Assembly: GCF_000378965.1 (NCBI RefSeq)
Contig: NZ_KB900536.1
Coordinates: forward strand, 3,163,407 to 3,227,406
From: Thioalkalivibrio thiocyanodenitrificans ARhD 1
GTDB taxonomy: Bacteria; Pseudomonadota; Gammaproteobacteria; Ectothiorhodospirales; Ectothiorhodospiraceae
Length of the DNA: 64,000 nucleotides
Reading direction: 5' to 3'
Shown: positions 1 to 37,158 of the stretch, one piece after another
Position numbering within the stretch: position 1 is the first letter of the stretch
Layout: each line of letters begins with the position of its first letter
The notes under the pieces: generated by a model
Database searches by the model: none
Seen by the model: the letters and a program-made list of their open reading frames with translations, nothing else
Told to the model about the DNA's origin: nothing
Made by a program: the position numbers and the translations under genes

Positions 1-798
1 ACCCGCCTGTTCGACCGGACCCACAACCGGGTCAGCCTCACGGAGGCGGGCCGCAAGGTCTACGAGTACGCGGAGCGCATCTTCGAGATGTATGCGGAGA
101 TGGAGAACGCGATACGGGAACTGACCGGGGACGTGAGCGGCGCCCTGACCCTGGGCGCCAGTACCACCATCGCGGAGTACATGCTTCCGTCCCTGCTCGG
201 GGATTTCAAACGCAAGTACCCGGAAATCAACATCCGTCTGAAGGTATCCAATTCCGAAGGCATCGTGTCGATGGTGGAGAACAACATCATCGACCTGGGG
301 GTGGTGGAGGCGCCGGTCACCAATCGCAACCTGCTGGTCGAGGTCTGCCGCGTGGATCAACTCGTATTGATCGTGCCGCCGGGACACCCTCTGGCGGAAC
401 GCGAATCGGTGCGCATGGAGGATATCCTGCCCTTTCCGTTTATCTGTCGGGAGGAGGGCTCGGGCACCCGCGAGGTGATCGTGGAGCACATGGCCAGCGA
501 GGGGATCGACAAGAATGCCCTGGGCGTGTGTCTGGAACTGGGCAGCCCGGAGGCCATCAAGGGGGCCGTGGAGGCCGGCATGGGGCTTTCCATCCTGTCG
601 CGGGCGACCATCGACAAGGAGCTGGAGCTCCGGCGGCTCGTGGCCGTTCCGCTGGATCCGCCGCTGGAGCGGCCCTTCGCGTTCGTGCGCCAGCGCCAGA
701 AGTTCCGGCTGCGGGCCATGGAGGAACTGCTGGATTTCGCACGCAATTATTGTCACATCCATTCAGGTGAAGATGCGCAAACCGAGGCAGCATCCTAG
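1..798 (+). CDS. LysR-family transcriptional regulator, CysL-like (5' end missing)
   Basis: The reading frame is open from the first base, so the start and most of the DNA-binding helix-turn-helix lie outside the window. The visible start, TRLFDRTHNRVSLTEAGRKV, is the end of a LysR winged helix. It is followed by a linker helix and a complete two-lobed substrate-binding domain with the typical LTLGASTTIAEYMLP and GMGLSILSR segments. Family knowledge: the closest subgroup is CysL/CbbR-like, which controls sulfur or carbon assimilation genes. The target here is unknown because the divergent neighbour is not visible. 265 residues are present, ending TAG at 796-798. Subfamily assignment is moderate; LysR assignment is firm. 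Confidence 0.9.
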   Translation, partial: TRLFDRTHNRVSLTEAGRKVYEYAERIFEMYAEMENAIRELTGDVSGALTLGASTTIAEYMLPSLLGDFKRKYPEINIRLKVSNSEGIVSMVENNIIDLGVVEAPVTNRNLLVEVCRVDQLVLIVPPGHPLAERESVRMEDILPFPFICREEGSGTREVIVEHMASEGIDKNALGVCLELGSPEAIKGAVEAGMGLSILSRATIDKELELRRLVAVPLDPPLERPFAFVRQRQKFRLRAMEELLDFARNYCHIHSGEDAQTEAAS

Positions 799-965
799 CG
801 AGCGGTCCCGTCAGTCTCTTGCCCGCCGGTGTATTAGACGGGCGCCTGCCGCATGGCTCCGGTCGATGCTGCGCTGCCCGATGAGCAAGTCCACGGACTG
901 ACAGAGGTTCGCGCTCCGATCCGTGATGCACCCCTGATACGGAGTTTGCAGATGGTGGATACACA

Positions 966-1337
966 GTGATTCCCGTATCTTCCCCAGGCGGCACGGGCGC
1001 GCAGGGCAAGGAGTTGTTGCGTCTGTTCAGGGATCTGCCGGAGGAGCATCGGCGTACCCTCCTGGCCTTCGCCCGGTTCCTGGCCGCGGAGGATGTGGCG
1101 ACGCCCGCGGAGATCCCCGAACCCGAACACATCCCGCGGCCCGACGAGGAAAGCGTGGTAAGGGCCATGAAGCGGCTTTCCGCCAGCTACCACATGCTCG
1201 ACAAGTCAAAGCTGCTCAACGAGACCTCCGCGCTCATGGCCCAGCACGTGATGCAGGGCCGTCCGGCGCAGGAGGTGATCGACGAGTTGGAAGCGGTCTT
1301 CGAGGCGCATTATCGGCAAATGGCAGGCAGGGAATAA
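966..1337 (+). CDS. Conserved small protein of unknown function
   Basis: A 123-residue, charged, mostly helical protein with no signal peptide or membrane segment. I do not recognise a domain. The first 60 residues contain a helix (LLRLFRDLPEEHRRTLLAFARFL) resembling those of small proteins involved in protein-protein contacts. The rest is acidic and ends HYRQMAGRE. The start is GTG at 966, preceded by a weak ribosome site; no ATG lies nearby. It ends 12 bases before the permease at 1350, so the two are probably co-transcribed. Codon use matches neighbouring genes, so the gene looks real. Function unknown. Confidence 0.7.
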   Translation: MIPVSSPGGTGAQGKELLRLFRDLPEEHRRTLLAFARFLAAEDVATPAEIPEPEHIPRPDEESVVRAMKRLSASYHMLDKSKLLNETSALMAQHVMQGRPAQEVIDELEAVFEAHYRQMAGRE

Positions 1338-1349
1338 GGAGCGGATGGC

Positions 1350-2429
1350 GTGATCGGACCGCTGCGCAAATGGTACGACCGGCATTTTTCGGACCCTCAG
1401 GTGGTGATTCTCGCCCTGATTCTCATTTTCGGCACGGCCATCGTGCTGCTGGCGGGCCGACTGATTGCCCCGTTGCTGGCCAGCATCATCCTGGCCTACC
1501 TGCTGGACGGGGCGGTGGAGAAACTGCAGCGCTGGCACATGCCCAGGCTGCCGGCCGTTGTCCTGGTATTCGTGGTGTTTTTCACCGTCTTCATCATCAC
1601 GCTGCTCGGGCTGATCCCGCTGCTGTCTCAGCAGATCGCCCAACTGGTGCGTGAACTGCCCGGCATGGTGGCCCAGGGGCAGAACGTGCTGCTACAGCTG
1701 CCCGAGCGTTATCCCCAGTTCATCTCGGAAGAGCAGGTGCGCGACATGATGGGCGCCATTCGTACCGAGGTGACCCTGTTCGGCCAGCGGATGGTGAGCC
1801 TTTCACTGGCGTCCGCCATGCACCTGGTGACATTCCTCGTGTATCTCATCGTGGTCCCGCTGATGGTGTTCTTCCTGCTCAAGGACAGGGATGCCATCCT
1901 CCGCTGGTTCACCGGTTTCCTGCCCCGCGACCGTGGGCTGGCCAGCGAGGTCTGGGCGGAGGTGAACGAGAAGATCGCCAGTTACGTGCGCGGCAAGTTC
2001 GTGGAGATCCTGATCGTTTGGGCGGTCACCTATGTGACCTTCACGCTGTTCGGTCTCAACTACGCCATGCTGCTTTCCGTGATGGTGGGTCTGTCGGTGA
2101 TCATCCCTTACGTGGGTGCGGCGGTGGTCACCCTGCCCGTGGCGCTGGTGGCGTACTTTCAGTGGGGCCTATCGGCCGAACTCGCGTGGGTGCTGGTGGC
2201 CTATGGGATCATCCAGTTTCTGGACGGCAACATCCTCGTGCCGCTGCTGTTCTCCGAGGTGGTCAATCTGCACCCGGTGGCCATCATCGCCGCGGTGCTC
2301 GTCTTCGGAGGTATCTGGGGGTTATTGGGCGTATTCTTCGCCATACCGCTGGCCACGCTCATCCAGGCGGTCATCCGTTCCTGGCCCCGTTACGAAGACA
2401 TGCCGGGGAGTGAAGGCGCGTCGGGCTGA
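1350..2429 (+). CDS. AI-2E family transporter (PerM/TqsA-type permease)
   Basis: A 359-residue polytopic inner-membrane protein. Hydrophobic segments lie near residues 15-45, 60-90, 145-175 and in a cluster at 205-345, matching the eight-helix AI-2E exporter family (PerM, YdiK, TqsA). The family-typical central motif YVRGKFVEILIVWAVTY and the C-terminal VPLLFSEVVNLHPVAI are visible. Members export small molecules or act as Na+/H+ antiporters; the substrate here cannot be told from sequence. GTG start at 1350, coupled to the small protein upstream. Confidence 0.9.
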   Translation: MIGPLRKWYDRHFSDPQVVILALILIFGTAIVLLAGRLIAPLLASIILAYLLDGAVEKLQRWHMPRLPAVVLVFVVFFTVFIITLLGLIPLLSQQIAQLVRELPGMVAQGQNVLLQLPERYPQFISEEQVRDMMGAIRTEVTLFGQRMVSLSLASAMHLVTFLVYLIVVPLMVFFLLKDRDAILRWFTGFLPRDRGLASEVWAEVNEKIASYVRGKFVEILIVWAVTYVTFTLFGLNYAMLLSVMVGLSVIIPYVGAAVVTLPVALVAYFQWGLSAELAWVLVAYGIIQFLDGNILVPLLFSEVVNLHPVAIIAAVLVFGGIWGLLGVFFAIPLATLIQAVIRSWPRYEDMPGSEGASG

Positions 2430-2546
2430 ATCCGGCCGATTCCCTCTCCATGCGCTCCTGTAGGACTATTGAGCGGGTTCCGGAGAACGGATTGCGCGCC
2501 GGTCGCCGGCCGGCCCGATCCAATCAGATGACGGCGTTTCCAGTTG

Positions 2547-5282
2547 ATGAGAATTGAATCTGCATCCGCCCAGGCTCCTCCGTTGGTCGAGATACTCGAA
2601 ACCTGGACCATCTGTGGATACCTCCATGAGTTCGATGTGCCCGGCATCCATTTCGGCCTGCGAATCCGCCGTGGTGACCGAGCAGATTGCGCAGCGCTTC
2701 GGGAGCGCATCCTCCGGGATCTGCGCGCACAGTCCCGGCTGTTCGACAAGACACCGGATATGGAATTCTCCCCGAATCCGGACGAGCGGATCGGTCAGCA
2801 GTTTGGTGAACTGGTGCTCTTGTTTCAGCGCGCGGTCGATGCCGAGGTGAGTCATGCCAAAGTTGTTGCCGGGCATGACAGCGGCCGCCTTGCGGTACTG
2901 ATCGAGAAAGAGGACACGGAAACCGCTGTCCGGGCCGGCGAGATCGTAGCCCGCCTGATGAATATGGCGGCGCTGGGCGGCCGGCTCGATGAAACCTGGC
3001 TGAATGATGAACTCGAGGGGTTCTTCAACTATGCCGCCGAGCGGATCCTCGACGACAACGCGCGGCTTGTCCTTGACGCGGCCAGGAGGCAGGGTCTGCC
3101 GGCACTGGACATTGACCAGCCCCCCTTCGACGCAACCCGCAAGGGCTTCACTGTCAGGCATGGGCTTGTGCAGGTCGGCATGTGTGCGCGGCAGCAGCGC
3201 TTCTTCTCGTCCATGCCGCAGGCGTACGCGGCTCGCGTGGCGCCCTGGATGTACAAGCGTGACGCGATCATGCGCAGGCTGCAGGCGCGGGGCATACCGA
3301 TCCCCGCACAGGAGCTTGAGTTTCCCAACAAGAACCGGTTTGGCAGGGTGCTGCGCGCCGCGCGACAGATCGGCTTTCCGGTGGTTCTGAAATCGCCTGA
3401 ATCCGGTGCCTTTCACGATGTGCTGCCCGGAAGCGGAGTCATAGGGCCTATTCGTGATGCCGATGAGCTGGAGAAGGCATTCGCGTGCGGTTTCGGTTCT
3501 CCCCGTTCTGCCTGGGTGGAGTCGTATGTGGCCGGCGCCACGTACCGCTTCCTTGTCATTGATTCCCGGGTGGTGTCCGTCGCACGGCGCCGTGCCCCCG
3601 GGGTCGTGGGTGACGGCAGAAGCACGGTGCGGTCTCTCGTGGAGCGTGAATGTGCGGGATCCGCCTCGTTCCGTGAACGCCTGGCGTGGCGCCGGGTACT
3701 GGAGATACGGTCAACCGCCTGTCGGCTGAGCCTGGCGGGCATGACCCTGGACTCCGTGCCCGACGCCGGCGTGCCGGTACAGATCGACTTCGATGGCTGT
3801 GCCGGCATCGGAGCCTGGGGTGACGAGGTGCTGGACGTGGTACCGGCAGACTTTCACCGGGTGGCATTGGAGGCCGTGGCCGCCTGCGGACTGGATTACG
3901 CGGGTGTCGATATGGTCATCAATGAGTTTGGAGGCGGGGCAGTCTACCCCAATGCGGCCGTCATCTCGGTGAGGGCCGAACCGGACCTGCTGATCCATGA
4001 TCGTCCGGGCACCGGACCGGCACGCGATGCAGCCGGCCTGCTGGTCGGGAAACACTTCTCGAGCCGGCAGGAAGCGGTGGTGCCCATTGTTGCCGTCACA
4101 GGGACCAACGGCAAGACGACGACCAGCCGGATGATCGCCAGCCTGTTTCGTCATGCCGGAAGGTCGACCGGTCTCGCCTGTTCGGACGGCATCTATGTCG
4201 ATGACAGGCTGTTGCTGAGTCATGATCTCGCCGGGGCGCCGGGAAGCCTCATTCTGCATGCCGAATCCGGGGTGGAGACCCTGGTGCTGGAAACGGCACG
4301 CGGCGGCCTGATCAGGCTGGGGCGGCCGTTCGAGATCGCGGACGTTGGCGTATGTCTGAATGTCGCGGCGGATCATCTGGGTCATGACGGTATTCGGACA
4401 CTCGACGAGATGGCCCTGGCCAAACGGTGCGTCATCGAGAACACGAAGGGCACGGCGGTTCTGAATGCGGAAGATCCCCGTTGTGTTGCGATGGCCCGGT
4501 ATTCTCCGGCCCGGGATCTGATCCTGTTCTCGGCGACGCCCGGGTCGCCCCGGATCGATGAGCAGATCTCTTCAGGCGGCAAAGCCGTCCATGTGCTGGA
4601 ACATGAGGGTGCGGAGCACATCTTCTATTTCAACGGCGCCCGGAACCTGCCGGTCGTCGCGGTGAGTGAGGTGCCGGCGACCTTCAATGGCAGGGCGAGA
4701 CACAACGTGGAGAACGCCGCGGCGGCGATCGCGGCAGCGTGCGCATCCGGGTTGCCTATCACGGAGATCGGGGCCGGTATGAAGCGGTTTCGGATGGGTT
4801 TCGAGACGACGCCCAGCCGGCTGAATGAGTTGCCCGGCCTGCCGTACCGGGTGATCATGGACGCGGCCCACAACCTTCATGGCATGGCGGCCCTCATGCA
4901 TTACCTGGATCAGGAAGCCGTGGAGGGACGGCGAATCCTGGTGTTCTCCGCCTCTGCCAGGTTTCCCGAGTCCTATGTGCGCGAGATGGCGCGTCTGGTC
5001 GCGGCAAGATTCGATCGGTTCATTTGCAAGAAGTACCGCGAGCAGGAGCCCTATCATGACAGCGAGGATCCGTGGCTGATTCTGCGCGATGAACTCCTCC
5101 GGAACCACGTCGCCGCGGATGCGGTGTCCGTCGTGCCCGATCCGAAGGAGGCGATTGCGGCCGCCGTGGATATGGCCGGGCCCGGTGACCTGGTGGTGTT
5201 GCTTGTGCCTGCCGGTAATTCGCTGGAGCCGGGGTTCTGGCAGGAACTGGAGCGGGTGACCGGATTGAAGGCAGCGGTGTGA
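2547..5282 (+). CDS. Cyanophycin synthetase-like protein (ATP-grasp + Mur ligase)
   Basis: 911 residues in the order of CphA: an N-terminal domain (about 1-215), an ATP-grasp-like domain (about 235-500) and a Mur-ligase domain (about 512-905). The Mur half is intact: the P-loop GTNGKTT lies at about 519-525, followed by TARGGLIRLG, NVAADHLGHDG and LNAEDPR, all typical of CphA. The ATP-grasp half is not. The CphA-family metal-binding stretch EVNAAPG aligns here with SVRAEPD (about 474-480), and the glycine-rich loop after KSPESG is altered. The CphA motif GGPGDRRDED is replaced by FSASARFPES. CphA makes multi-L-arginyl-poly-aspartate; with these changes I infer a different ligase or single-step activity. 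No cyanophycinase is adjacent. ATG at 2547 is chosen over a TTG three bases upstream. Confidence 0.8.
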   Translation: MRIESASAQAPPLVEILETWTICGYLHEFDVPGIHFGLRIRRGDRADCAALRERILRDLRAQSRLFDKTPDMEFSPNPDERIGQQFGELVLLFQRAVDAEVSHAKVVAGHDSGRLAVLIEKEDTETAVRAGEIVARLMNMAALGGRLDETWLNDELEGFFNYAAERILDDNARLVLDAARRQGLPALDIDQPPFDATRKGFTVRHGLVQVGMCARQQRFFSSMPQAYAARVAPWMYKRDAIMRRLQARGIPIPAQELEFPNKNRFGRVLRAARQIGFPVVLKSPESGAFHDVLPGSGVIGPIRDADELEKAFACGFGSPRSAWVESYVAGATYRFLVIDSRVVSVARRRAPGVVGDGRSTVRSLVERECAGSASFRERLAWRRVLEIRSTACRLSLAGMTLDSVPDAGVPVQIDFDGCAGIGAWGDEVLDVVPADFHRVALEAVAACGLDYAGVDMVINEFGGGAVYPNAAVISVRAEPDLLIHDRPGTGPARDAAGLLVGKHFSSRQEAVVPIVAVTGTNGKTTTSRMIASLFRHAGRSTGLACSDGIYVDDRLLLSHDLAGAPGSLILHAESGVETLVLETARGGLIRLGRPFEIADVGVCLNVAADHLGHDGIRTLDEMALAKRCVIENTKGTAVLNAEDPRCVAMARYSPARDLILFSATPGSPRIDEQISSGGKAVHVLEHEGAEHIFYFNGARNLPVVAVSEVPATFNGRARHNVENAAAAIAAACASGLPITEIGAGMKRFRMGFETTPSRLNELPGLPYRVIMDAAHNLHGMAALMHYLDQEAVEGRRILVFSASARFPESYVREMARLVAARFDRFICKKYREQEPYHDSEDPWLILRDELLRNHVAADAVSVVPDPKEAIAAAVDMAGPGDLVVLLVPAGNSLEPGFWQELERVTGLKAAV

Positions 5283-5478
5283 CGGGCCTCCACATGCCGT
5301 GCCCGGCGTTGCTGGTGGATGCGTCCGCCCTGCCCGTGTCGGGAGTGCCGCAGATGATCCGGATCGGGCCGTGTGTCACGTCAGGGCGCGTCAGTCGGGC
5401 CGCAAGGGCCGGTGTAACAACCGGCGGTCACGACCGGCATTGGTGCTTCTCGCCCTTCGTGTTGCGGGGCGGAGGCCT

Positions 5479-6891
5479 TCAGAGTGTCGCCGAGGCGTAA
5501 TCCGCAAGCCGCGAGCGTTCGCCGCGGGTCAGCGTGATATGCCCGCTGTGCTCCCAGTGCTTGAACCGGTCCACCACGAAGGTGAGCCCGGAAGTGGTCT
5601 CGGTCAGGTAGGGCGTGTCGATCTGGGCGATATTGCCGAGGCATACCACCTTGGTGCCGGGCCCGGCCCGGGTGATCAGCGTCTTCATCTGCTTGGACGT
5701 GAGATTCTGCGCCTCGTCCAGGATGATAAAGCGGTTGAGAAAGGTGCGCCCGCGCATGAAGTTCAGCGAGCGGATCTTGATGCGGCTCTTCAGCAGGTCG
5801 TTTGTGGCGGCGCGCCCCCAGTCCCCGCCGATGTCGGACTTGGTGAGCACCTCCAGGTTGTCCATCAGCGCGCCCATCCAGGGGGTCATCTTCTCCTCCT
5901 CGGTGCCGGGCAGGAAACCGATGTCCTCGCCCACCGGCACTGTCACCCGGGTCATGATGATCTCCTTGTAGACGTTCTCCTCCAGTGTCTGGGCGAGTCC
6001 GGCCGCCAGGGTGAGCAGGGTCTTGCCCGTGCCGGCGGCGCCGACCAGGCTCACGAAATCTATCTGCGGATCCATGAGCAGGTTCAGGGCGAAGTTCTGT
6101 TCCCGGTTGCGCGCATTGATCCCCCAGACGGTATGCCGCGGGCTGAGATAGTCCACAGGGGTCTCGATCTCGGCGGTGTCGTGGTCGAGGCGGCGCACCA
6201 GCGCGGTGAACGGCTGTTCGCCATCGAGATGCAGAAACTGGTTGGGAAACCACTCCTGGACCATGGGACCATGAAGGCGGTAGAACGTATGCCCGCTCTC
6301 CTGCCAGGACTCCATGGCCTTGCCATGGGATTCCCAGAAGTCGCCGGACAGTTCGCAACGTCCGCTGTAAAGCAGATTGACGTCATCGAGTACCTGGTCG
6401 TTGAAGTAGTCTTCCGCGTGGATACCCAGCACCGCCGCCTTGATGCGCAGGTTGATGTCCTTGGAGACCAGGGTGATGTCCACGTCCGGACGCTCCTGCT
6501 GAAGGGCCATGGCCGTGCCGAGGATGGTGTTGTCCGGCGTATTGCCGGGCAGGCTGTCGGGCAGGTGGGCTGGCATGACCCGGGTCTGGAAATAGAGGCG
6601 GCCCGTGCCGCCAAAGGCCGTGTCGGAGAGGCTCTCGCTCGACAGAAGCAAGCCCTGTGCAATCTCCGCGTGGCTCGCGTCGCTCATCATCTCGTCGATG
6701 AACCGGCTGACCTGGCGCACGTTGCGCGCCACCTCGGAGACGCCTTTCTTGCCCCGGTCCAGTTCCTCCAGAACCACCATGGGCAGGTAGATGTCGTGTT
6801 CCTGAAATCGGAACAGCGCGGTCGGGTCGTGCATGAGCACATTGGTGTCCAGCACGAAAAGACGCTTGCCGCGGATGTCTTTCTTCACCAT
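5479..6891 (-). CDS. PIN domain + PhoH-type ATPase (PhoH2-like)
   Basis: 470 residues. The N-terminal PIN nuclease domain begins with LFVLDTNVLMHDP and has ELDRGKKG, giving the acidic metal-binding residues. A PhoH P-loop ATPase domain follows, with LVGAAGTGKTLLTLAAG (Walker A) and RFIILDEAQNLTSKQMKTL (Walker B). Family knowledge: PIN-PhoH proteins are ATP-dependent RNA helicase/RNases, often linked to toxin-antitoxin-like or stress RNA decay. Start at 6891, because AGGAG sits 7 bases upstream; an in-frame ATG 33 bases earlier has no such site. No antitoxin gene is adjacent. Confidence 0.92.
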   Translation of the reverse strand: MVKKDIRGKRLFVLDTNVLMHDPTALFRFQEHDIYLPMVVLEELDRGKKGVSEVARNVRQVSRFIDEMMSDASHAEIAQGLLLSSESLSDTAFGGTGRLYFQTRVMPAHLPDSLPGNTPDNTILGTAMALQQERPDVDITLVSKDINLRIKAAVLGIHAEDYFNDQVLDDVNLLYSGRCELSGDFWESHGKAMESWQESGHTFYRLHGPMVQEWFPNQFLHLDGEQPFTALVRRLDHDTAEIETPVDYLSPRHTVWGINARNREQNFALNLLMDPQIDFVSLVGAAGTGKTLLTLAAGLAQTLEENVYKEIIMTRVTVPVGEDIGFLPGTEEEKMTPWMGALMDNLEVLTKSDIGGDWGRAATNDLLKSRIKIRSLNFMRGRTFLNRFIILDEAQNLTSKQMKTLITRAGPGTKVVCLGNIAQIDTPYLTETTSGLTFVVDRFKHWEHSGHITLTRGERSRLADYASATL

Positions 6892-6922
6892 GAAATAGCT
6901 CCTGGTCGTGCATGACAGGGAC

Positions 6923-6957
6923 AAAAAACGCCGCAGCCCCCGTACGGGAGCGCGGCG
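6923..6957 (-). terminator. Intrinsic terminator of bcp
   Basis: Read on the minus strand, CGCCGC pairs with GCGGCG around an inner CCCGTACGGG palindrome, followed by six T residues. It lies between the end of bcp (7011) and the start of the PhoH gene (6891), so it should end bcp transcription. Confidence 0.8.
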
Positions 6958-7010
6958 CGGGAATTCTGTTGCCGGGTATCGGGGCGCGCAGGTCGCGGCA
7001 TGGGCGGATT

Positions 7011-7481
7011 CTACAGTTCGCTGATCGCCCCCAGGACCTCATCCACGTGGCCCGGGACTTTCACCTTGCGCCACTCCCTGCGCAGAATCCCGTCCCGATC
7101 GATGAGGAACGTGCTGCGCTCGATGCCCATGACCTGCCTGCCGTACATGTTCTTCATCCGGATGACGTCGAACAGCCTGCACAGGCTTTCGTCCTCGTCA
7201 GACAGCAGGTCGAATGGAAAGCCGTACTTCTCCTTGAACTTCTCATGGGACCTGATGCTGTCACGCGATACCCCGAGCACGGCCACGCCCTTGTTCTTCA
7301 GCTTAGCGTACTGTTCGGAGAAGTCCCTGCCTTCCGTGGTGCAGCCGGAGGTGTCGTCCTTCGGATAGAAGTACAGTACCACGTGCTGCTTTCCCTTGAA
7401 GTCCGACAGCCGGACAGACTTGTCGCCGGTGGCGGGGCGCTCGAAGTCGGGGACGGGGGAGTCGAGGGTGACTTTGGACAT
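7011..7481 (-). CDS. bcp: Thioredoxin-dependent peroxiredoxin (Bcp/PrxQ)
   Basis: 156 residues, usual Bcp length. The peroxidatic cysteine is Cys47 in FYPKDDTSGCTTEGRDF, with the family Thr two positions before and Arg further on. It reduces hydrogen and organic peroxides in the cytoplasm using thioredoxin. E. coli Bcp has a second cysteine five residues after the first; here that position is not Cys (CTTEGR), so this is a 1-Cys-type or uses another resolving Cys such as the one in SLCRLF. Transcribed alone, with a terminator downstream. Confidence 0.95.
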   Translation of the reverse strand: MSKVTLDSPVPDFERPATGDKSVRLSDFKGKQHVVLYFYPKDDTSGCTTEGRDFSEQYAKLKNKGVAVLGVSRDSIRSHEKFKEKYGFPFDLLSDEDESLCRLFDVIRMKNMYGRQVMGIERSTFLIDRDGILRREWRKVKVPGHVDEVLGAISEL

Positions 7482-7524
7482 GGAGGCGGGTCTCTATGCT
7501 TTCAGGTTGTTCCGAGGGACAGCT

Positions 7525-7611
7525 GATAAGTGCGAAGTGTGAATTGGGAAGTGGGAAGTGGGAATGCAGTGCCTCTACTTCGCACTTCCCAATTCACACT
7601 TCGCACTTATC
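7525..7611. repeat. Heptamer-based inverted repeat, family A copy 1
   Basis: The left arm begins GATAAGTGCGAAGTGTGAAT and the right arm is its reverse complement for 29 consecutive bases, with five more matches after one mismatch. Each arm is a run of heptamers: AAGTGCG, AAGTGTG, AATTGGG, AAGTGGG. It lies between bcp and the gcvR-like gene, and the gcvR-like stop codon TAA is inside the right arm. Similar copies lie at 11274-11354 and 59969-60045. Confidence 0.9.
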
Positions 7612-8161
7612 CTTTGATCGGCTCTATCACCCCATCCAGATTCAACTCGTCGCAGAAATCCAGGAAGTCGTCCCGGAGGGTTGCGATGTGCTCGTTGGCC
7701 GGAATCTCCACCGTGAGATGCGCGGCAAACATGGGCGTGGCCGTGTGGGCCGCGTTGTAGGCATGGGTGCTCATTTCCTGGATGTTGATGCCGCGGGCGG
7801 AGAAGAATCCGGCCAACTGATGCACGATCCCCGGCTGGTCCAGGGCCACCACGTCGACCCCGTATGGCATGGCACGTTCGGCGAGCTTCCGGGGGCCGGT
7901 CCGCTGGGAGATGACCTCCAGTCCCGCCTGGCCGCGCAGGGTGTTCAGGGCCGTGTCCAGACGGCTCAGGGTGTTCCAGTTGCCGGCGGCTAGCATGATG
8001 ATGGCGAAACTGCCGCCCAGCACGGTCATGCGGCTGTCCTCGATGCTGCAGCCGCTCTCCAGCACGGCCCGGGAAATGCCCTCGACCAGCCCCGGGCGAT
8101 CCTCGCCGATGGCGGAGATGACCATGTGGGTACTGCGGTTCTGGTTCGACTTGGGGGTCAT
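7607..8161 (-). CDS. GcvR-like ACT-domain protein
   Basis: 184 residues made of two ACT domains: about 12-85 (VISAIGEDRPGLVEGIS) and about 97-175 (VVALDQPGIVHQLAGFFSARGIN). This is the layout of GcvR, the glycine-sensing accessory repressor that binds GcvA and controls glycine cleavage genes in E. coli. In many gammaproteobacteria this gene sits beside dapA and bamC, as here (divergent). The glycine-response role is by family; a more general amino-acid sensor is possible. Its TAA stop lies in the repeat at 7525-7611. Confidence 0.85.
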   Translation of the reverse strand: MTPKSNQNRSTHMVISAIGEDRPGLVEGISRAVLESGCSIEDSRMTVLGGSFAIIMLAAGNWNTLSRLDTALNTLRGQAGLEVISQRTGPRKLAERAMPYGVDVVALDQPGIVHQLAGFFSARGINIQEMSTHAYNAAHTATPMFAAHLTVEIPANEHIATLRDDFLDFCDELNLDGVIEPIKG

Positions 8162-8306
8162 GGGGGGGCCGTCTCCGGCGGGGAATCAGGGTCAAGCGTA
8201 CCAGCTACCGGAGCCCTCGCGCTACGCCTGCCGGGCGCGGCGTGTTGCTTGATCCCGGGGGGGCGCGGTGAGTAACATGTCTCACTTGTCTCCTGCGGAG
8301 GTTCGG

Positions 8307-9191
8307 ATGTTTCACGGCAGTATGGTGGCCCTCGTGACGCCCATGGACGAGGACGGTGCGGTGTCGGAGGCGTCTCTGGCGGGTCTGATCGAGTTCCACC
8401 TGGAACGCGGTACAGACGCCATTGTCGCCGTGGGGACGACCGGGGAATCCGCCACCCTGGATTTCGACGAGCATTGCCAGGTGATTCGCCGGGTGGTGCG
8501 GATGGTCGCGGGACGCATTCCGGTGATCGCCGGCACAGGCGCCAACTCCACCTCCGAGGCCATTGAACTGACCCGTTGCGCCATGCAGGCGGGCGCCGAT
8601 GCCTGTCTGCTGGTCACGCCCTACTACAACAAGCCCACCCAGGAAGGGCTTTACCTTCACCACCGGGCCGTGGCCGAGGCCGTGCCCATCCCGCAGATCC
8701 TGTATAATGTGCCCGGGCGCACGGCGGTGGACATGCACAACGACACCGTGGTGCGTCTGGCCGAGATCTCCAATATCGTGGGGCTGAAGGACGCCACCGG
8801 TGATCTGGATCGAGTCCCGGACCTGGTGGCCCGGTGCGGGGACCGGATCGACCTGTACAGCGGGGACGACGCCACCGGCATGGAATTCATGCTGGCCGGA
8901 GGCAGGGGCGTGATCTCGGTGACGGCCAACGTCGTCCCTGCGGAGATGCATGCCATGTGCGAGGCCGCGTTGCGTGGTGACCGTGCCGAAGCCGAGGTGG
9001 TCAACGCGCGTGTGGATCCCCTGCACCAGGCACTGTTCCTGGAAGCGAACCCCATACCGGTGAAATGGGCCCTGTACGAGATGGGCCTGATACCCGCAGG
9101 CATCCGTCTGCCACTGACCCCCTTGTCGGAACATTGCCGGGCGCCGCTCAGGCAGGCCCTCCAGGCGGCCGGCGTCACCCTCAACACCTGA
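8307..9191 (+). CDS. dapA: 4-hydroxy-tetrahydrodipicolinate synthase
   Basis: 294 residues, normal length. It condenses pyruvate with aspartate semialdehyde, the first committed step to lysine and meso-diaminopimelate for peptidoglycan. The pyruvate-binding TTGES, the catalytic Tyr in YNVPGRT and the Schiff-base Lys in VGLKDATGD are all present. GGAGG lies 5 bases before ATG 8307, so the upstream in-frame ATG at 8268 is rejected. Followed after 11 bases by bamC, the usual gammaproteobacterial dapA-bamC order. Confidence 0.97.
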
Positions 9192-9202
9192 TACCCGAAT
9201 CC

Positions 9203-10351
9203 ATGACAGCCAAACGCATGTCTACAACGTCCCTTGCGGGGATTGTCGTCCCCGTGCTCGTGATTGCGCTCTCCGGTTGCGGCCTGCTGGGCGACCGTCG
9301 CGATGCCGCCCATGAACGCGCAACCGGCGGGCGTGCCCTGGAGGTGCCCCCCGACCTGCTGCCACCGGAGCTGGATGCCACGTACCGGGTGCCGGCCCGT
9401 GAGGATGGCCGGGTCAGTGCCGTAGAGGCCGAACGGCGCGAGCAGCGGCCGTCCGGCATCCTCGGTGCGGGCCCTGTGCCCGAATCGACCCGGGTGGCGC
9501 TTCGCGAAGTGGATGACATGACCGTGCGGCGCGAGGGAAATGTCCGCTGGCTGGAGTTGCGTGCCGTGCCCGACGGGCTGTGGCCGGCGCTCCGGGCGTT
9601 CTGGCGTGATCAGGGTTTCGAGCTGAGCCGGGACGAACCCGCTGTCGGCATCATGGAAACGGAATGGAAAGAAAGCCAGGCGGGTATCTCCACGGGAGCA
9701 TTTCGCGCGGCGCTGACCCGGGTCCTGGGTACCCAGCATGACGCGGGGTACCAGGACAGGTACCGCGTGCGTCTTGAACGGGAAGACGGCGATGTGACCA
9801 ATCTGTATCTGTCGCACCGGGGCGTGGAGCAGGTTGTGGAGGATCCTGCGGTGGGCGGCATCCGGTGGGTCATGCGCCCCTCCGACCCGGATCTCGAGGC
9901 GGAGATGCTGACCCGCCTGATGGTCTTCCTGGGCCGTGAGGAGGGGGATGCCCGCGACATTGTGGACTTCGCTGCCGATGCGGCTCCAACCGTGCGTGAG
10001 CGTGAGGTGGATGGCAAGCCGGGCCTGGAACTGCGGGGTGAATTCGGCCAGGTGTGGCGGCAGGTGGGGCTGAGCCTGGACCGGGCCGGTCTGCTGGTGG
10101 ATGACCAGGACCGTGGGGCCGGCGTGTTCCATGTGACCTACAGCCGGGAAGCCGCGGAGGCCGGCTCCGGTGGCGGATTCTTCAGCCGGTTGTTCCGCCG
10201 TGACCCTGTCAGCGGGGACGGGCGCTATCAGATCCTCGTGGTTCAGGAAGGGGACTGGGTGCGTATCACGGCCCTGGGCCGCGAGGGCGAGGCTCTGAGG
10301 GCGAGTGATGCGCGCAATGTCCTGGAACTGCTGCGCGACGAGATCTACTGA
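9203..10351 (+). CDS. bamC: Outer membrane assembly lipoprotein BamC
   Basis: 382 residues. The N-terminal signal ends in a lipobox (ALSGC, Cys about residue 29), so the mature protein is lipid-anchored. An unstructured stretch follows, then two helix-grip domains (about 95-215 and 270-380), as in BamC/NlpB of the BAM beta-barrel assembly machine. A short Gly/Ser linker lies near GSGGGFF. It follows dapA by 11 bases, and the conserved pairing supports the assignment. ATG at 9203 is the start just before the signal peptide. Confidence 0.92.
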   Translation: MTAKRMSTTSLAGIVVPVLVIALSGCGLLGDRRDAAHERATGGRALEVPPDLLPPELDATYRVPAREDGRVSAVEAERREQRPSGILGAGPVPESTRVALREVDDMTVRREGNVRWLELRAVPDGLWPALRAFWRDQGFELSRDEPAVGIMETEWKESQAGISTGAFRAALTRVLGTQHDAGYQDRYRVRLEREDGDVTNLYLSHRGVEQVVEDPAVGGIRWVMRPSDPDLEAEMLTRLMVFLGREEGDARDIVDFAADAAPTVREREVDGKPGLELRGEFGQVWRQVGLSLDRAGLLVDDQDRGAGVFHVTYSREAAEAGSGGGFFSRLFRRDPVSGDGRYQILVVQEGDWVRITALGREGEALRASDARNVLELLRDEIY

Positions 10352-10451
10352 GAGCCGGTGACCGTATCCTTCGCCCGACGGCCGCCCCGGATTCACTGCA
10401 CTTCGCCCCGGCCGTTGGCGGATGTTCCCGCCACGACGGGGAAACCGTTCA

Positions 10452-11261
10452 ATGACCTTTCAGGGCGCAATGAGCGTGGCTGATAAAAACCCGGTGCGGG
10501 GGATCCGCTTCGCTGCGCTGGGCAGCGGCAGCCGCGGTAATTGCCTGGTGGTGTGTGCCGGGGAGACCCGGGTGATGGTGGATTGCGGCTTCTCGGTGTC
10601 CGAGACCGCCCGGCGGCTTGCGAGACTGTCGCTGACCCCTCAGGACATTGATGCCGTGCTCGTCACCCACGAACACACCGACCACATCGGCAGCGCGGCC
10701 GCTTTCTCACGTCGATACCGCAAGCCCGTATGGCTGACCGCCGGCACCCTGGAGGTTCTGCGCGATACGGGCTTCCATGCCACGCGGATCTTCCATGCCC
10801 ACGAGCACCTGGCGATCGGTGACCTTCAGATCGAACCCTATCCCGTGCCCCATGATGCCCGTGAACCCTGCCAGTTCCTGTTCAGCGACGGCGACCGGCG
10901 TCTGGGACTGCTCACGGATGCGGGTTCGGTGACGCCTCACATGCGCCGTACCCTGGATGGCTGCGATGCCCTGCTGCTGGAATGCAATCACGACCGGGAC
11001 ATGCTGGCCGCCGGGCCCTATCCGGAGTCGCTCAAGCGGAGGGTGGGCGGTGAACGCGGGCACCTGGGCAATCATCAGGCCGAGGCCATGCTCGCGGGCC
11101 TCGACACCTCGCGGCTCAGGCATGTGATCGGCATGCACCTGTCGGAGAAGAACAACACCGAGGCGCTTGCCCTGGAGAGTCTTTCCCGTGCCCTGGGCTG
11201 TACACCGGATTGGGTGAACGTGGCGCGGCAGGACGAGGGGTTCGGTTGGCGCGAAGTGTAA
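10452..11261 (+). CDS. MBL-fold metallo-hydrolase, YycJ/WalJ-like
   Basis: About 269 residues. The metal motif THEHTDH and the start GSGSRGNCLVV identify the YycJ (WalJ) branch of metallo-beta-lactamase-fold proteins, which in Bacillus has 5'-exonuclease activity. Later ligands are in HDAREPC, LLTDAG and GMHLSEKN. Start uncertain: ATG 10452 has GGGGA 9 bases upstream, with alternatives at 10422 and 10470. The stop codon region (GAAGTGTAATTGGAGG) resembles the repeat just downstream, so the last codons may have been remodelled by the repeat. Confidence 0.88.
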   Translation: MTFQGAMSVADKNPVRGIRFAALGSGSRGNCLVVCAGETRVMVDCGFSVSETARRLARLSLTPQDIDAVLVTHEHTDHIGSAAAFSRRYRKPVWLTAGTLEVLRDTGFHATRIFHAHEHLAIGDLQIEPYPVPHDAREPCQFLFSDGDRRLGLLTDAGSVTPHMRRTLDGCDALLLECNHDRDMLAAGPYPESLKRRVGGERGHLGNHQAEAMLAGLDTSRLRHVIGMHLSEKNNTEALALESLSRALGCTPDWVNVARQDEGFGWREV

Positions 11262-11273
11262 TTGGAGGGGGGG

Positions 11274-11354
11274 GATGAAGTGAGAAGTGTGAATCGGGAA
11301 GTGCGAAGTAAAGGCCTTTGATTCCCACCTCCCAATTCACACTTCTCACTTCTC
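11274..11354. repeat. Heptamer-based inverted repeat, family A copy 2
   Basis: The left arm has GAAGTGAGAAGTGTGAATC and the right arm its near-exact reverse complement, with GGGAAGTG heptamers inside. It fills the convergent gap between the YycJ-like gene and folE2. The folE2 stop codon TGA lies within the right arm. It could serve as a two-way terminator. Confidence 0.88.
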
Positions 11355-12164
11355 CTCTTCCTTGTCCTTCTGGATAAGCGCATACGCCGAATGGTTGTGG
11401 ATGGATTCGAAATTCTCCGATTCCACTGCGTAGGCGCCGATGCGGTCGTCCGCATTCAGCCTTGCAGCCACGTCGCGGACCATGTCCTCCACGAACTTGG
11501 GATTGTTGTAGGCGCGCTCGGTGACGTGCTTCTCGTCGGGTCGCTTGAGCAGACCATAGAGTTCGCAGGAGGCCTCGCTTTCCACCAGATCGATCAGTTC
11601 CTCGATCCATACAAAATCGCGCACCCTGGCGTTGACGGTCACGTGTGAACGCTGGTTGTGGGCGCCGTAGTCGGAGATCTTCTTGGAGCATGGACACAGG
11701 CTGGTCACCGGGACCACCACCTTGATGTTCATCTCGGCGGTGCCGTCATGGATCTCTCCGATGAAGGTGACGTCGTAGTCCATGAGGCTCATGACACCGG
11801 AGACGGGCGCCTGCTTGTTCACGAAATAGGGGAAATTCATCTCGATGTGGCCGGAGCCCGCCTCCAGGCGCTCGGCCATCTCATGGAGCATCTGCTTGAA
11901 GGACTGCACCGTGATCTCGCGCTCGTGGTTGTTGAGGATCTCCACGAAGCGGGACATGTGTGTGCCCTTGAAGTTGTGGGGCAGGTTCACGTACATGTTG
12001 AAGCGTGCAACGGTGTGCTGCTCGCCACCGTCGCGGTCGCTTACGCGCACCGGATGGCGGATGTCCTTGATGCCCACCTTGTTGATGGGAATCTGTCGGG
12101 TGTCGGCGCTGGCCTGTACGTCAGGCATGCCGCCGGGGATGATCTTGGGTACCACGGTGCTCAT
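11346..12164 (-). CDS. folE2: GTP cyclohydrolase I type 2 (FolE2/GCYH-IB)
   Basis: 272 residues. It converts GTP to 7,8-dihydroneopterin triphosphate, the entry to folate and queuosine. The FolE2 cysteine motif SLCPCSK and the preceding VVVPVT are present, followed by GAHNQRSHV and the C-terminal [13 protein letters not shown]. The family is not zinc-dependent, unlike FolE. It overlaps queD by 4 bases (ATGA), so translation is coupled; the pair suggests use for 7-deazaguanine (queuosine) synthesis. The stop lies in the downstream repeat. Confidence 0.95.
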
Positions 12165-12571
12165 GAATTGATCCGGTTCTCGATGTCGGTTTCTTCTTCA
12201 GTGTAACGGACACAGGCGCGCTCGGTCTCCCATAGCGTGATTGAGTGCACCCGCACGTGGGGGCCGTTCAGCTTGTCCACCATCTCCCGGTAGAACCAGG
12301 CGGCGATGTTCTCGGCCGTCGGATTGATGTCCCGAAACGGATCCAGGTCATTGAGGTAGCGGTGATCCAGCCGCCCGGCAATCTCCCGCGCCGCCCGCTT
12401 GATATCGCGGAAATCCAGGCCCATGCCCACATCATCCAGCCGTGTGGCCACCACCTCCGCCTCCACCTTCCAGTTGTGGCCATGCATGCGGCTGCATGCC
12501 CCCGGGTACTCGCGGAGGGTGTGGGCGGAGGCAAAATCGGTGACGACCCGAAGCGTGTACTTGGCGGCCAT
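12161..12571 (-). CDS. queD: 6-carboxy-tetrahydropterin synthase (QueD/PTPS family)
   Basis: 136 residues. It uses dihydroneopterin triphosphate, the product of its neighbour FolE2, to make 6-carboxy-tetrahydropterin for queuosine. The zinc ligands are the His in FASAHTL and the pair in MHGHNW; Cys in GACSRMHGH is the catalytic thiol, and the Glu in WETE is the usual pterin-binding residue. It is upstream of folE2 and shares ATGA with it. Confidence 0.92.
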
Positions 12572-12588
12572 GTCTATAACTTAGTAAA

Positions 12589-14505
12589 TTACTGGGATAT
12601 TACCCGGGTGCGGGCTTCGCCGCAATCCCGGTCTTTGGCGCCCGGAACGGTCAGACGTTGCCGTACCGCGGCCAGGATGCCCGCAGTGTCGAGTCCCGCT
12701 TCGCTCAGGAGTTCCTCGCGGCTGCCGTGATCCTGGAAGCGGTCGGGAAGCCCCAGGTTGAGCACCGCCACCGGCAGGCCGAGCCGCGACAGCGTCTCGT
12801 TGACGCCGCTTCCCGCGCCGCCGGCCACGGCGTTGTCCTCGAGGGTGACCAGCAGGTCGTGGTTGCGGGCGGTCTCTTCGATCAGCGTCTCGTCCAGCGG
12901 CTTGACGAAGCGCATGTTGATCACGGTGGCATCCAGCGCCTCGCCGGCTTGCAGCGCCGCGGACAGTACCGCCCCGAAACACAGCAGGGCAACGCCGCGG
13001 CCCTCCCGGCGCCGTTCGCCGCGGCCCACGGGCAGCGCGTCCAGCTCGGGCTGTACGGCCACGCCCGGACCCTTGCCTCGCGGGTAACGCACCGCCGCCG
13101 GCCCGTCGAGACGGAAGCCCGTGGTGAGCATGCGCCGGCATTCATTCTCGTCGGCGGGTGCCATGATGGTCAGATTGGGCAGGCAGCGCAGGTAGCTCAG
13201 GTCAAAGCTGCCCGCGTGGGTGGGCCCGTCCGGGCCCACCAGGCCGGCCCGGTCGATGGCCAGCAGCACCGGCAGGTTCTGGATGGCGATATCGTGAATC
13301 AGCTGGTCATAGGCCCGCTGGAGGAAGGTGGAATAGATGGCCACCACCGGTTTCATACCCTCGCAGGCAAGCCCCGCCGCCACGGTCAGGGCATGCTGCT
13401 CGGCAATGCCCACATCGAAATACCGGGCCGGAAAACGTTCCGAGAAGGTCACCAGGCCCGAGCCCTCGCGCATCGCCGGGGTGATGGCCATGAGGTTCGG
13501 GTCCGCTTCGGCCATGTCGCACAGCCACTGCCCGAACACCTGGGTGTAACTGGGCCCGCCGGAGCCTCCGGAAGGCGCCAGGCCCACCTCGGGGTCAAAC
13601 TTGCCCACCCCGTGGTAACCGCAGGGGTCCTGTTCGGCAGGCGTGTAGCCGTGGCCCTTGCGGGTCACCACGTGGAGCAGTCGCGGGCCGGGCAGGGCCT
13701 TGAGATTCCTCAGGGTCTTCACCAGGGAGGGCAGGTCGTGACCGTCGATGGGCCCGTAGTAGTTGAAACCCATCTCCTCGAACAGGGTCCCCGGCACGAT
13801 CATGCCCTTCATGTGCTCTTCCGCCCGACGCATGAACTCGCGCATGGGCGGCATGTGATCCAGTACCCGCTTGCTGCCTTCGCGCACCGTGGCGTACAGG
13901 GATCCGGAGAGCATGCGGGCCAGGTAGTTGTTCATGGCGCCCACGTTGGGGGAGATGGACATCTCGTTGTCATTGAGCACCACCAGCAGGTCGGCCTTCT
14001 CGTCGCCGGCGTGGTTCAGGGCCTCGAAGGCCATGCCGGCGGTCATGGCGCCGTCGCCGATGATCGCCACCGCGTGCCGGGATTCCCCCCGCTGGCGGGC
14101 GGCCAGCGACATGCCGAGCGCCGCACTGATGGAGGTGCTGGAATGGCCCACCCCGAAGGTGTCGTAGGGGCTCTCGGTACGCTTGGGGAAGCCTGCCAGG
14201 CCGCCTTTCGTTCGCAGGCCCGACATGGCCTCGCGCCGGCCGGTGAGGATCTTGTGCGGGTAGCTCTGGTGGCCCACGTCCCAGACCAGCCGGTCCTCGG
14301 GCGTATCGAATACGTAGTGCAGGGCGATGGTCAGCTCAACGCTGCCCAGGTTGGAGGCCAGATGACCGCCGGTGCTGGAGACGGAGTCCAGCAGGAACGC
14401 CCGCAGTTCCCCGGCCAGCGCCGTCAGATCCGAGGCAGGCAGTGCCCGCAGGTCGGACGGCGCATGGATGCGGGACAGCAGGGGATACGGCTCATGTTGG
14501 GTCAT
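12589..14505 (-). CDS. dxs: 1-deoxy-D-xylulose-5-phosphate synthase
   Basis: 638 residues. It joins pyruvate and glyceraldehyde 3-phosphate, the first step of the MEP isoprenoid pathway, using thiamine diphosphate. The TPP motif starts [32 protein letters not shown] and the transketolase-like [15 protein letters not shown] are typical. ATG 14505 is chosen; a TTG at 14526 is possible, and neither has a good ribosome site. It lies downstream of xseB-ispA, as usual, but about 360 bases of repeats separate it from ispA. Confidence 0.96.
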
Positions 14506-14862
14506 GGGGGACTGGACGCACGGCAAAGGGGAGAATTATCGACCCCCGGAGCGGGGCATGCAAGAAAGCGCCGGGCGAGGAGTGATCTGTAGGATGGGTC
14601 AAGCAAAGCGGACCCATGCTGAACGGACGGTGACGAGTGACCAACAAGGCGCGACACAAAGGCCGTGACACGCTTGTTCCCCGACAAGGAGCTTAACCCC
14701 TCCCCGTCACTTGTCACTCGTTACTGACCCCCTCATTCCTGACACAGCGGTCCGCATGGGCACGCTTCGCTTTGCCCATCCTACGGTCTACGGCTGACTT
14801 CCCGCTCGGCATAGGTCCGCTGAGCTTGACCTATCCTGCCGAAACCTCACTCCTCTCCACAT
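14506..14862. repeat. Composite repeat block between ispA and dxs
   Basis: No gene. Three related hairpin arms of a REP-like unit are seen: 14589-14619 (GTAGGATGGGTCAAGC...), its inverse at 14754-14784, and a degenerate inverse at 14810-14840. Nested inside is a second inverted pair made of heptamers, TGACGAGTGAC near 14630-14641 against GTCACTTGTCACTCGTTAC at 14706-14724. The block interrupts the usually tight ispA-dxs operon. Confidence 0.8.
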
Positions 14863-15753
14863 CTAATGAATCCGCTCGACGATGTATCTCGCGATCCAGC
14901 GCAGCAGGTCGGCCTCGGAGCCGAAGTCCTCCACGGCGGCGAGCGCCTGGTCCACCAGGGCACGGGCCTCTTCCCGGGAGGCGTCCAGTCCGATGACTGC
15001 CGGGTAGGTGGGCTTGTTGAGCGCCCGGTCCGCGCCCTGGGTCTTGCCCAGGATCGCGGTGTCGCTCTCTTCGTCCAGGATATCGTCGCGGATCTGGAAC
15101 GCGAGCCCCACGTGCTTGGCAAAACGGTCCAGCTGCTCCAGGCGGCCTTCATCCAGTTCGTCGGCGCTGAGCGCGCCCATCAGCACGCTGGCTCGGATGA
15201 GCGCGCCGGTCTTGTGGACGTGCATGTCCTCCAGTTGGGCGATGTCCAGGACCTGACCCACGGCGCCCAGATCGATGGCCTGGCCACCGGCCATGCCACG
15301 GGAACCGGCGGCACGGGCCAGCAGTTCGATCATACGCAGGCGGCGGGCGGGGTCGGGGATCATGTCCGGGTCGACGGTCAGGATCTGAAAGGCCAGCGCC
15401 TGCATGGCATCACCCGCCAGAATCGCCATGGCCTCATCGAAGGCCTTGTGGCAGGTGGGCTTCCCCCGGCGCAGGTCGTCGTCGTCCATGGCCGGCAGGT
15501 CGTCGTGGATCAGCGAATAGACATGGATAAGTTCCACCGCGCACGCGGGGCCGTCCAGTCGCGGGGTATCCGCCCCCATGGCGAGGCCGCCTGCATGCAC
15601 CAGGACCGGGCGCACCCGTTTGCCGCCCCCCAGCGCGGAATAGCGCATGGCCTCGTGGAGCCGGGCGGGGTGGGTGCGGGCGGAGGGAATCCAGCGGTCC
15701 AGGGCCCGTTCCGTGCGTTCCCTCAAGGCGGTGACATGATCTTCCATGCTCAT
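14863..15753 (-). CDS. ispA: Farnesyl/geranyl diphosphate synthase
   Basis: 296 residues. It builds C15 prenyl diphosphate from IPP and DMAPP. The first aspartate-rich motif is [14 protein letters not shown], and the second is DDILD in RDDILDEES. It overlaps the xseB stop by 4 bases (ATGA), giving coupled translation, and dxs follows, so this is the usual xseB-ispA-dxs cluster. Confidence 0.96.
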
Positions 15754-31370: not shown

Positions 31371-31410
31371 GAAGGGGCCGGGGGCAATGGGCTAGGCGGT
31401 TCATTAGAGC

Positions 31411-31534
31411 GATTCAAGGTTCAAAGTTCAAGGTTCAAAGTTCAATGGGAAAGACCGCCCGGACAACGCGCTGTGCCCGGCAGGATCACCCCTGTGAACC
31501 TTGAACCTTGAACTTTGAACTTTGAACCTTGAGT
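31411..31534. repeat. Heptamer-based inverted repeat, family B copy 1
   Basis: The left arm 31411-31446 consists of TTCAAGG/TTCAAAG units and the right arm 31494-31534 is their reverse complement (CTTGAAC, TTTGAAC). The spacer between is about 47 bases. It lies between ypjD and the CNNM gene and ends six bases before the ypjD stop codon. Confidence 0.9.
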
Positions 31535-31539
31535 CGCCC

Positions 31540-34852: not shown

Positions 34853-34977
34853 GATTCGGAATTCAAGATTCAAGATTCAAGATTCAAGACATCAATAGAT
34901 GAGAACCGGGGTACGGAGACCGGGTCTCCACGGTGGCCGGAGTTGTCCCCTCTTGTCGCGCGCATCTTGTATCTTGC
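34853..34977. repeat. Heptamer repeat, family B copy 2, degenerate inverse arm
   Basis: Left arm 34858-34889 has four tandem ATTCAAG units. The right side is degenerate: ATCTTGTATCTTG at 34964-34976. It lies four bases after the ffh stop codon. Between the arms no gene is visible. Confidence 0.8.
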
Positions 34978-36995: not shown

Positions 36996-37066
36996 CCATT
37001 GTCCGGAATGCAAGAAGGGGCGCCGCGGATACACCGCGGCGCCCCTTCTTGCATTCCGGACAATGG
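36996..37066. terminator. Perfect 33-bp hairpin after rplS
   Basis: The 33 bases 36996-37028 are exactly complementary in reverse to 37034-37066, with a 5-base loop ATACA. The first arm begins 2 bases after the rplS stop codon. It is longer than typical intrinsic terminators and without a long U-run. Heptamer repeat B3 begins at its end. Confidence 0.92.
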
Positions 37067-37148
37067 ATTCAAAGTTCAAGATTCAAGATTCAAAGTGGGG
37101 TACCCTCACGCCTTGAACTTTGAATCTTGAATTTTGAATCTTGAACCT
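37066..37148. repeat. Heptamer-based inverted repeat, family B copy 3
   Basis: Left arm 37066-37095 of TTCAAAG/TTCAAGA units and right arm 37112-37148 of TTGAATC/TTGAACT units; the spacer is 16 bases. It reaches to 11 bases before the start of the next gene. Confidence 0.88.
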
Positions 37149-37158
37149 CGAATTGCTC

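Follow-up and report, generated by a model that had tools for sequence, protein, structure and literature searches.

The window analysed here, a stretch of 64,000 nucleotides (G000:C1:3163407-3227406) from a 3.75-Mb Thioalkalivibrio genome, contains six AAGTGNG/AATTGGG heptamer arrays that form three inverted pairs, all located at gene 3′ ends (Table 1). Each arm of this type, which we refer to as family A, consists of tandem AAGTGNG units with AATTGGG usually in third place, and two inverted arms flank a short loop (6-11 bases in the window copies). Wherever two family-A arms are close, AAGTG comes first and CACTT last, so that both strands read alike. At each of the thresholds 12, 14 and 16, a heptamer-periodic scan of the window returned the same six family-A arms and no others. 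No arm appeared in 10 first-order Markov resamplings, and the three copies noted earlier in a sequence-only reading of this DNA are confirmed. The stems are very stable on both strands, with predicted folds of -44 to -66 kcal/mol and z-scores of -9 to -13 against dinucleotide shuffles. No part of the window matches an Rfam family at gathering thresholds.

Table 1. Heptamer arrays and associated features in the window (window coordinates)
Feature	Position	Strand	Remarks
Copy 1, left arm	7524-7565	+	five heptamers, AAGTGCG AAGTGTG AATTGGG AAGTGGG AAGTGGG; score 32.5; 0 arms in 10 resamplings
Copy 1, loop	7566-7576	.	with inner arm ends inverted in G043 (forward 18, reverse complement 39 of 39)
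Copy 1, right arm	7577-7608	-	inverted heptamers; overlaps gcvR-like TAA stop 7607-7609 (minus strand)
Heptamer remnant GAAGTGTAATTGGAGG	11252-11268	+	holds TAA stop 11259-11261 of metallo-beta-lactamase (YycJ-like) gene
Copy 2, left arm	11277-11309	+	period-7 scan score 26
Copy 2, loop	11310-11320	.	AAGGCCTTT type
Copy 2, right arm	11321-11354	-	contains folE2 TGA stop 11346-11348 (minus strand)
Copy 3, left arm	59969-60002	+	begins with ppc TGA stop 59970-59972, the TGA of TGAAGTA
Copy 3, right arm	60009-60044	-	stops 3 bases short of the panD (aspartate decarboxylase) gene end
Family-B (AAGGTTC) heptamer pair	arms 31408-31453, 31489-31538	.	in convergent gap
Family-B (AAGATTC) single array	34861-34889	+	behind a gene end
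Family-B (AAGATTC) heptamer pair	arms 37064-37098, 37109-37156	.	between divergent genes

The 15-base core GTGAATTGGGAAGTG that the earlier reading ascribed to all three copies is exact in four of the six arms and carries one mismatch in each arm of the folE2 copy. That reading also placed three stop codons inside the repeats: this holds for the TGA codons of ppc and folE2, while the TAA of the gcvR-like gene shares only two bases with the arm, at the arm's very end. The YycJ-like gene does end in repeat-like sequence as described, its stop codon lying within a heptamer remnant. Copy 1 is flanked by two genes on the same strand, the gcvR-like gene before it and a peroxiredoxin gene (AhpC/TSA type by Pfam) after it, and location in a convergent gap is therefore limited to copies 2 and 3. 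Directly before the second family-B pair, and fronting the divergent gene pair, there is a near-perfect long palindrome (~36996-37066, 33-base arms and a ~5-base centre).

The genomes are labelled G000 (that of the window), G042 (T. denitrificans ALJD), G043 (MAG CSSed162cmA_318), G045 (T. sulfidiphilus ALJ17) and G044, which we take to be T. sulfidiphilus HL-EbGR7. A search of the whole G000 genome on both strands with the family-A pattern AAGTGNGAAKTGNGAAKTG gave 55 + 56 matches, as compared to 6 + 0 for the same pattern read backwards (111 versus 6). The pattern is present in all five Thioalkalivibrio genomes, with 83-184 matches each, and in none of 42 other genomes of the family. In a collection of genome contigs that may leave out the window's own genome, a 27-base pattern retrieved 32 stretches, all from Thioalkalivibrio (T. 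denitrificans ALJD, T. sulfidiphilus ALJ17 and one MAG).

We assessed the placement of family-A elements in G000 using the first 100 of the 111 listed pattern matches plus seven regions from BLAST hits, with genes called by a small, purpose-written and uncurated caller. Among the sites listed, 67 had a called gene on both sides: 40 were in tandem gaps, 26 in convergent gaps and a single one in a divergent gap, a scarcity with P = 8e-9 when set against the fraction of intergenic bases that belong to divergent gaps. Gene 3′ ends facing a listed site lay within -12 to +4 bases of it in 58 of 88 cases, with the mode at -2 (23 of 88), and 5′ ends in 8 of 40. These results bear out the proposal that the element sits at gene ends. 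Three of the listed sites fall inside a called gene. The idea that the arms serve as a special supply of stop codons was rejected, since TGA accounts for 56 of the 88 stops at element ends, a share no higher than that among the called genes with a stop in these stretches (215 of 318). At one locus (L059), three single family-A arrays (2316-2353, 2984-3015 and 3510-3541) run in one direction, each near the start of a type IV pilin-like gene as judged by eye; one of them is within a called gene.

The seven-base period stands out in the genus as a whole. We examined 712 kb from four genus genomes, picked for synteny and with every contig already known to hold at least one repeat; the intergenic part of this DNA contains 88 period-7 segments versus 0-10 for each other period between 4 and 13, with 57 segments of period 14 and 2 of period 15, and the coding part contains six period-7 segments. 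In the sister genus g2 none was found in the 80 kb sampled, and in g4 (183 kb) there were two, every period from 4 to 15 having 2-4. A looser threshold yielded 108 arrays, which fall into families A (42), B (AAGATTC, 27), C (AAGTGGC, 17), E (TGAGGCG, 6), D (AAGGATG, 4), F (2) and G (2), with 8 others, so that a few unit families are scattered across a genome. All but five of the arrays in this looser set that have genes on both sides are in tandem or convergent gaps. Neighbouring arrays are inverted relative to each other in 30 of 33 pairs and direct in none, as compared to 21% and 18% of random pairs.

A gene missing from the earlier note alters the reading of these repeats. At junction 44a_4 of both T. 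sulfidiphilus strains, the loop between two family-B arms holds an open reading frame matching PF05635, the 23S rRNA intervening-sequence protein (IVP). The five genus genomes contain 21 PF05635 matches, all but one above the curated cut-off; 14 control genomes contain no match. Family A has its own gene-bearing copy, at G000:3004274-3004567 between family-A arms (L070 = L268). The window copies have the long-stem terminal inverted repeat of a 23S rRNA intervening sequence or IVP element, yet they sit between protein genes, not within a 23S rRNA gene, and a PF05635 frame is absent from their loops and present in those of other copies (L265, L268 and L269).

The association extends beyond the genus. 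PF05635 was detected in 57 of 274 genomes of the class, 52 of them over the cut-off, and we mapped 50 IVP loci, 21 in the genus and 29 that are the best-scoring matches from other genera rather than a random draw. A period-7 array lies within 350 bp of the gene at 47 of the 50 loci and on both sides at 31; the two-sided loci comprise 28 with inverted arms, 2 with direct arms and 1 tie. Outside the genus, 26 of the 29 loci have an array, 17 of them on both sides; L290, L291 and L298 have none at the threshold used, and 13 further loci have an array on one side or arms that are not inverted-like. Random 315-base placements in IVP-positive genomes met any array in 44 of 2000 trials and arrays on both sides in 1 of 2000, and none of 20 loci of Y1 transposase (PF01797) has a heptamer array. 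The genus loci are partly orthologues and hence do not represent 21 independent events; the family-A IVP gene occupies one locus in four genomes and therefore looks inherited rather than freshly moved, and L266 and L270, at two contig ends, are apparently one copy.

The unit also follows the protein. With unit labels given by eye and 12 of the 50 loci left unlabelled, the IVP tree requires 13 changes of unit, versus a mean of 26.3 for shuffled labels (0 of 200 as low); units A, B, C and E are clustered, helped by near-copies, unlike two small unit groups. In DNA away from the gene, 10 period-7 segments occur in 400 kb of 13 IVP-positive genomes (in 5 of the 13) compared with 0-1 for the other five periods, and 18 IVP-negative genomes have one in 333 kb (1 of 18). 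The difference is in the expected direction, but the counts are few and include at least one segment resembling GC-rich coding chance. Seventeen plasmid records carry an IVP gene; among the 13 examined (twelve cyanobacterial and one from Riemerella), period-7 arrays adjoin the gene in 12, of which L343 and L350 are low-complexity stretches of purines that would qualify for periods 6 or 8 too. On plasmids of Pseudanabaena, Anabaena, Picosynechococcus and Nostoc edaphicum (L346, L354, L351 and L347), IVP genes with repeat arms are embedded between cas6 and cas4 (twice), between cas10 and cmr3, and between two ribonucleotide reductase (nrd) genes; genes in such positions could be misread as components of a CRISPR system.

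The model of the family-A IVP protein has four helices (pLDDT 96) and matches 2RLD (TM 0.91, E 3e-6) and 2GSC (XCC0516 of Xanthomonas campestris; TM 0.88, E 2e-3). It also resembles Avd of a diversity-generating retroelement (4DWL), with a TM of 0.77-0.78 and a weak E of 0.2-0.5; a resemblance between PF05635 and Avd is noted in PMC10053308. A need for a resident reverse transcriptase was considered and rejected: T. denitrificans ALJD (G042) has six PF05635 matches as well as arrays, yet no PF00078 match, so a resident PF00078 reverse transcriptase is not needed to keep the elements and an Avd-like partnership with such an enzyme is not general. As a separate observation, G000 has nine PF00078 matches, several of identical score and length, versus 0-1 in its relatives, indicative of a recent expansion.

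Comparison of close relatives reveals what changes at these junctions. The proteins of the two T. sulfidiphilus strains (G044 and G045) are 95-100% identical, and 153 orthologous junctions were compared between them; at 23, at least one of the strains has an array. With families assigned by eye, five junctions differ in family (A/D, C/A, A/E, A/C and A/E), three have a family-A element in one strain and a GTAG REP doublet in the other, one has a family-B element versus a remnant, and the remaining junctions have like arrays in both strains or are ambiguous. The REP doublets are in G044, at 44a_24, 44a_70 (where heptamer remnants flank the REPs) and 44b_15 (L161, L163 and L242), with the family-A element in G045. 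Swaps are also seen between G000 and G043, which are ~95% identical: L054 2984 and L172 4867, again named by eye, are family A in G000 and family E in G043. The latter junction, 44a_89 in the T. sulfidiphilus comparison, carries A in G000 and G044 and E in their respective close relatives G043 and G045, a distribution that departs from the species tree. Insertion at gene ends, as suggested in the sequence-only reading, is plausible in that whole elements are swapped at orthologous junctions; however, neither the G000/G043 alignments shown, nor nine chosen pairs, nor the 23 G044/G045 junctions presented by eye a convincing clean empty site with a target duplication, such as a MITE would leave, and movement is on this account only inferred. 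The two arms of an element change together: within a site they are 0.743 identical, versus 0.714 for shuffled partners (51 sites, z 4.4, 0 of 2000 as high).

Arm co-change and the replacement of one hairpin by another (a different family or a REP doublet) at the same junction are both expected if the repeats are two-way terminators or mRNA 3′-end hairpins selected by the host, in which case the stem would be kept whatever its sequence and the heptamers would be just material. The location at gene 3′ ends, the near absence between divergent genes and the stability of the stems on both strands also agree with this explanation. We nevertheless consider it unlikely. A T-run does not follow the stem, as judged by a terminator scan of window positions 1-15000, which flags neither copy 1 nor copy 2, and from the sequence of copy 3; an intrinsic (Rho-independent) terminator was rejected on these grounds, and the two-way terminator proposed earlier has gained no positive evidence. 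Moreover, a classical terminator already lies beside the array at 44a_44 and 44a_69 (by eye), a terminator in a tandem gap, as at copy 1, would separate genes that share a strand, and neither period 7 nor the IVP gene is explained.

Loops and units change as well. Thirty-seven G000 sites have both flanks located in G043, and at 29 of these both arms are present in both genomes: the loop is inverted at 7, window copy 1 among them, collinear at 20 and unclear at 2. Several elements differ in length by multiples of seven between these genomes, and units change in concert, with GGCAAGT becoming GGCAAGC three times over at L043 4747. Between G044 and G045, scripted loop orientation covered four family-A junctions, of which 2 are inverted and 2 collinear, and a further inversion was seen by eye at 44a_7 (family C). 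Loop inversion and arm rewriting are fast enough to show between relatives of ~95% identity. Two orthologous single arrays of ~11 units just upstream of a start codon (L156 ~6146-6227, G045C6 46146-46227; L162 ~5502-5578, G044a 45502-45578) differ in every unit, TGACCAC versus TGACTCC, an extreme of concerted change.

Indels of 7n bases, concerted unit changes and loop inversions are what would be predicted if replication slippage and template switching at hairpins rewrote the arrays in the absence of any protein of their own, the IVP genes merely landing there or being tolerated. A polymerase-footprint idea for heptamers, cited in PMC4692102, fits with such a process, as does the fact that no movement is shown in this analysis. 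This explanation seems rather improbable to us, because it accounts neither for arrays following the IVP gene, nor for units tracking the IVP clade across families, nor for the dispersal of a few unit families genome-wide. The suggestion that these are REP/REPIN elements mobilised by a RAYT (Y1 transposase) draws on their being dispersed intergenic inverted pairs, on the Y1 transposases of the genus and on the REP doublets at the same kind of junction, but was rejected as highly improbable given that heptamer arms are within reach at 0 of 20 PF01797 loci, that the GTAG foot is missing and that the published REP of Thioalkalivibrio sp. HL-EbGR7 has a different sequence, GTAGGTCGGCCTTCAGGCCGAC (PMC2817692), which is seen as such at junction 44b_15.

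The reading we favour, with a probability of roughly 0.6, is that the three window repeats represent copies, lacking a gene, of a hairpin element. In its full form this element would carry an IVP (PF05635) gene in its loop, and it would be a free-standing counterpart of the 23S intervening sequences. The elements have inverted period-7 arms with a fixed polarity, arms of this kind enclose IVP genes, and the unit family tracks the IVP clade; the loops of the elements invert, their lengths change in steps of seven, their units change in concert and their arms together, families are swapped, and positions right after stop codons are strongly preferred. Since the window copies are without the gene and outside 23S rRNA, they would be gene-less relatives of intervening-sequence elements and not members of that group. 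Copies would spread as units through the action of IVP on the arms, with gene-less copies using the protein in trans. The arms may pair in vivo as a hairpin or cruciform; if replication then switched template, one arm could be rewritten from its partner and the loop turned round. The survival of copies at gene ends would reflect that a stem-loop in this position does no harm or, as a 3′-end hairpin, is of slight use. By analogy with what is reported for rRNA intervening sequences, the stem may be trimmed from the RNA by RNase III, and a copy behind a stop codon may be tolerated because its stem can be trimmed or ignored. A host role as a 3′-end hairpin could coexist with the intervening-sequence reading.

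A wider generalisation is tentative and, in our estimate, falls somewhat short of probable: heptamer-armed IVP hairpins may constitute one widespread selfish class in Pseudomonadota, Cyanobacteriota and Bacteroidota, in which an Avd-like IVP spreads, rewrites and flips its cognate arms, the rRNA intervening sequences being those copies that inserted into 23S genes, and the heptamers of Xanthomonas, Nostoc and Thioalkalivibrio being gene-less offspring. Heptamers are an over-represented repeat length in many bacteria, reported without a cause in the accessible text of PMC4692102, and the rRNA intervening sequence with an S23/IVP gene is a second puzzle, with origin and function left unexplained in the portion of PMC4990558 available to us. 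The heptamer-IVP link in three phyla gives both puzzles a common, testable origin and suggests an activity for genes annotated merely as ‘four helix bundle protein’. In a literature search that reached few subscription journals, no listed paper joined intergenic heptamer arrays with an IVP gene.

Similar to the elements described here, the intervening sequence of Coxiella burnetii has an inverted-repeat stem; its terminal stem is 28 bp long and is cleaved by RNase III in vitro, and the S23 frame is preceded by two or three tandem heptamers, depending on the strain (PMC4990558). Intervening sequences with an S23/IVP frame carry PF05635 in the loop, as do the full copies here (L268 in family A). 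However, they reside within the 23S gene, whereas the elements of Thioalkalivibrio are free-standing, intergenic and present in many copies, and those of the window lost the gene or never had it. Avd of diversity-generating retroelements (4DWL) shares the IVP fold (TM ~0.77), but, unlike in those systems, no template or variable repeat was seen. REP/REPIN elements with RAYT (PMC2817692, PMC3116915 and PMC3733652) are likewise dispersed, inverted and intergenic, and occur at the same junctions, but the elements here have period-7 arms and neither a GTAG foot nor a RAYT nearby. The TAACTGA repeats of Beggiatoaceae are also intergenic heptamer arrays, but are described as direct and just before start codons, with one inverted case only in the part of PMC4679880 available to us.

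A likeness in placement extends to the GGGAATC heptamers of Xanthomonas, with 70-75 inverted pairs per genome that lie near or over stop codons and are rare between divergent genes (PMC4692102). The elements here are likewise tandem 7-base units, inverted, intergenic, near stops and rare between divergent genes, but with a different unit, AAGTGNG/AATTGGG: three consecutive GGGAATC units have 0 matches in G000, and the GGGAATC pattern, sought beside the IVP gene, was found in none of the 274 genomes of the class sample. The accessible sections of PMC4692102 also cite Calothrix heptamers, read the Xanthomonas and Nostoc heptamers as formers of G-quadruplexes and mention neither S23 nor intervening sequences. 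The Xanthomonas GGGAATC and Nostoc GGGGA(C/T)T repeats (Rehm-type) vary in length and sequence between relatives (PMC4692102); beyond this, the elements of Thioalkalivibrio display several unit families, loop inversion and the swapping of one family for another.
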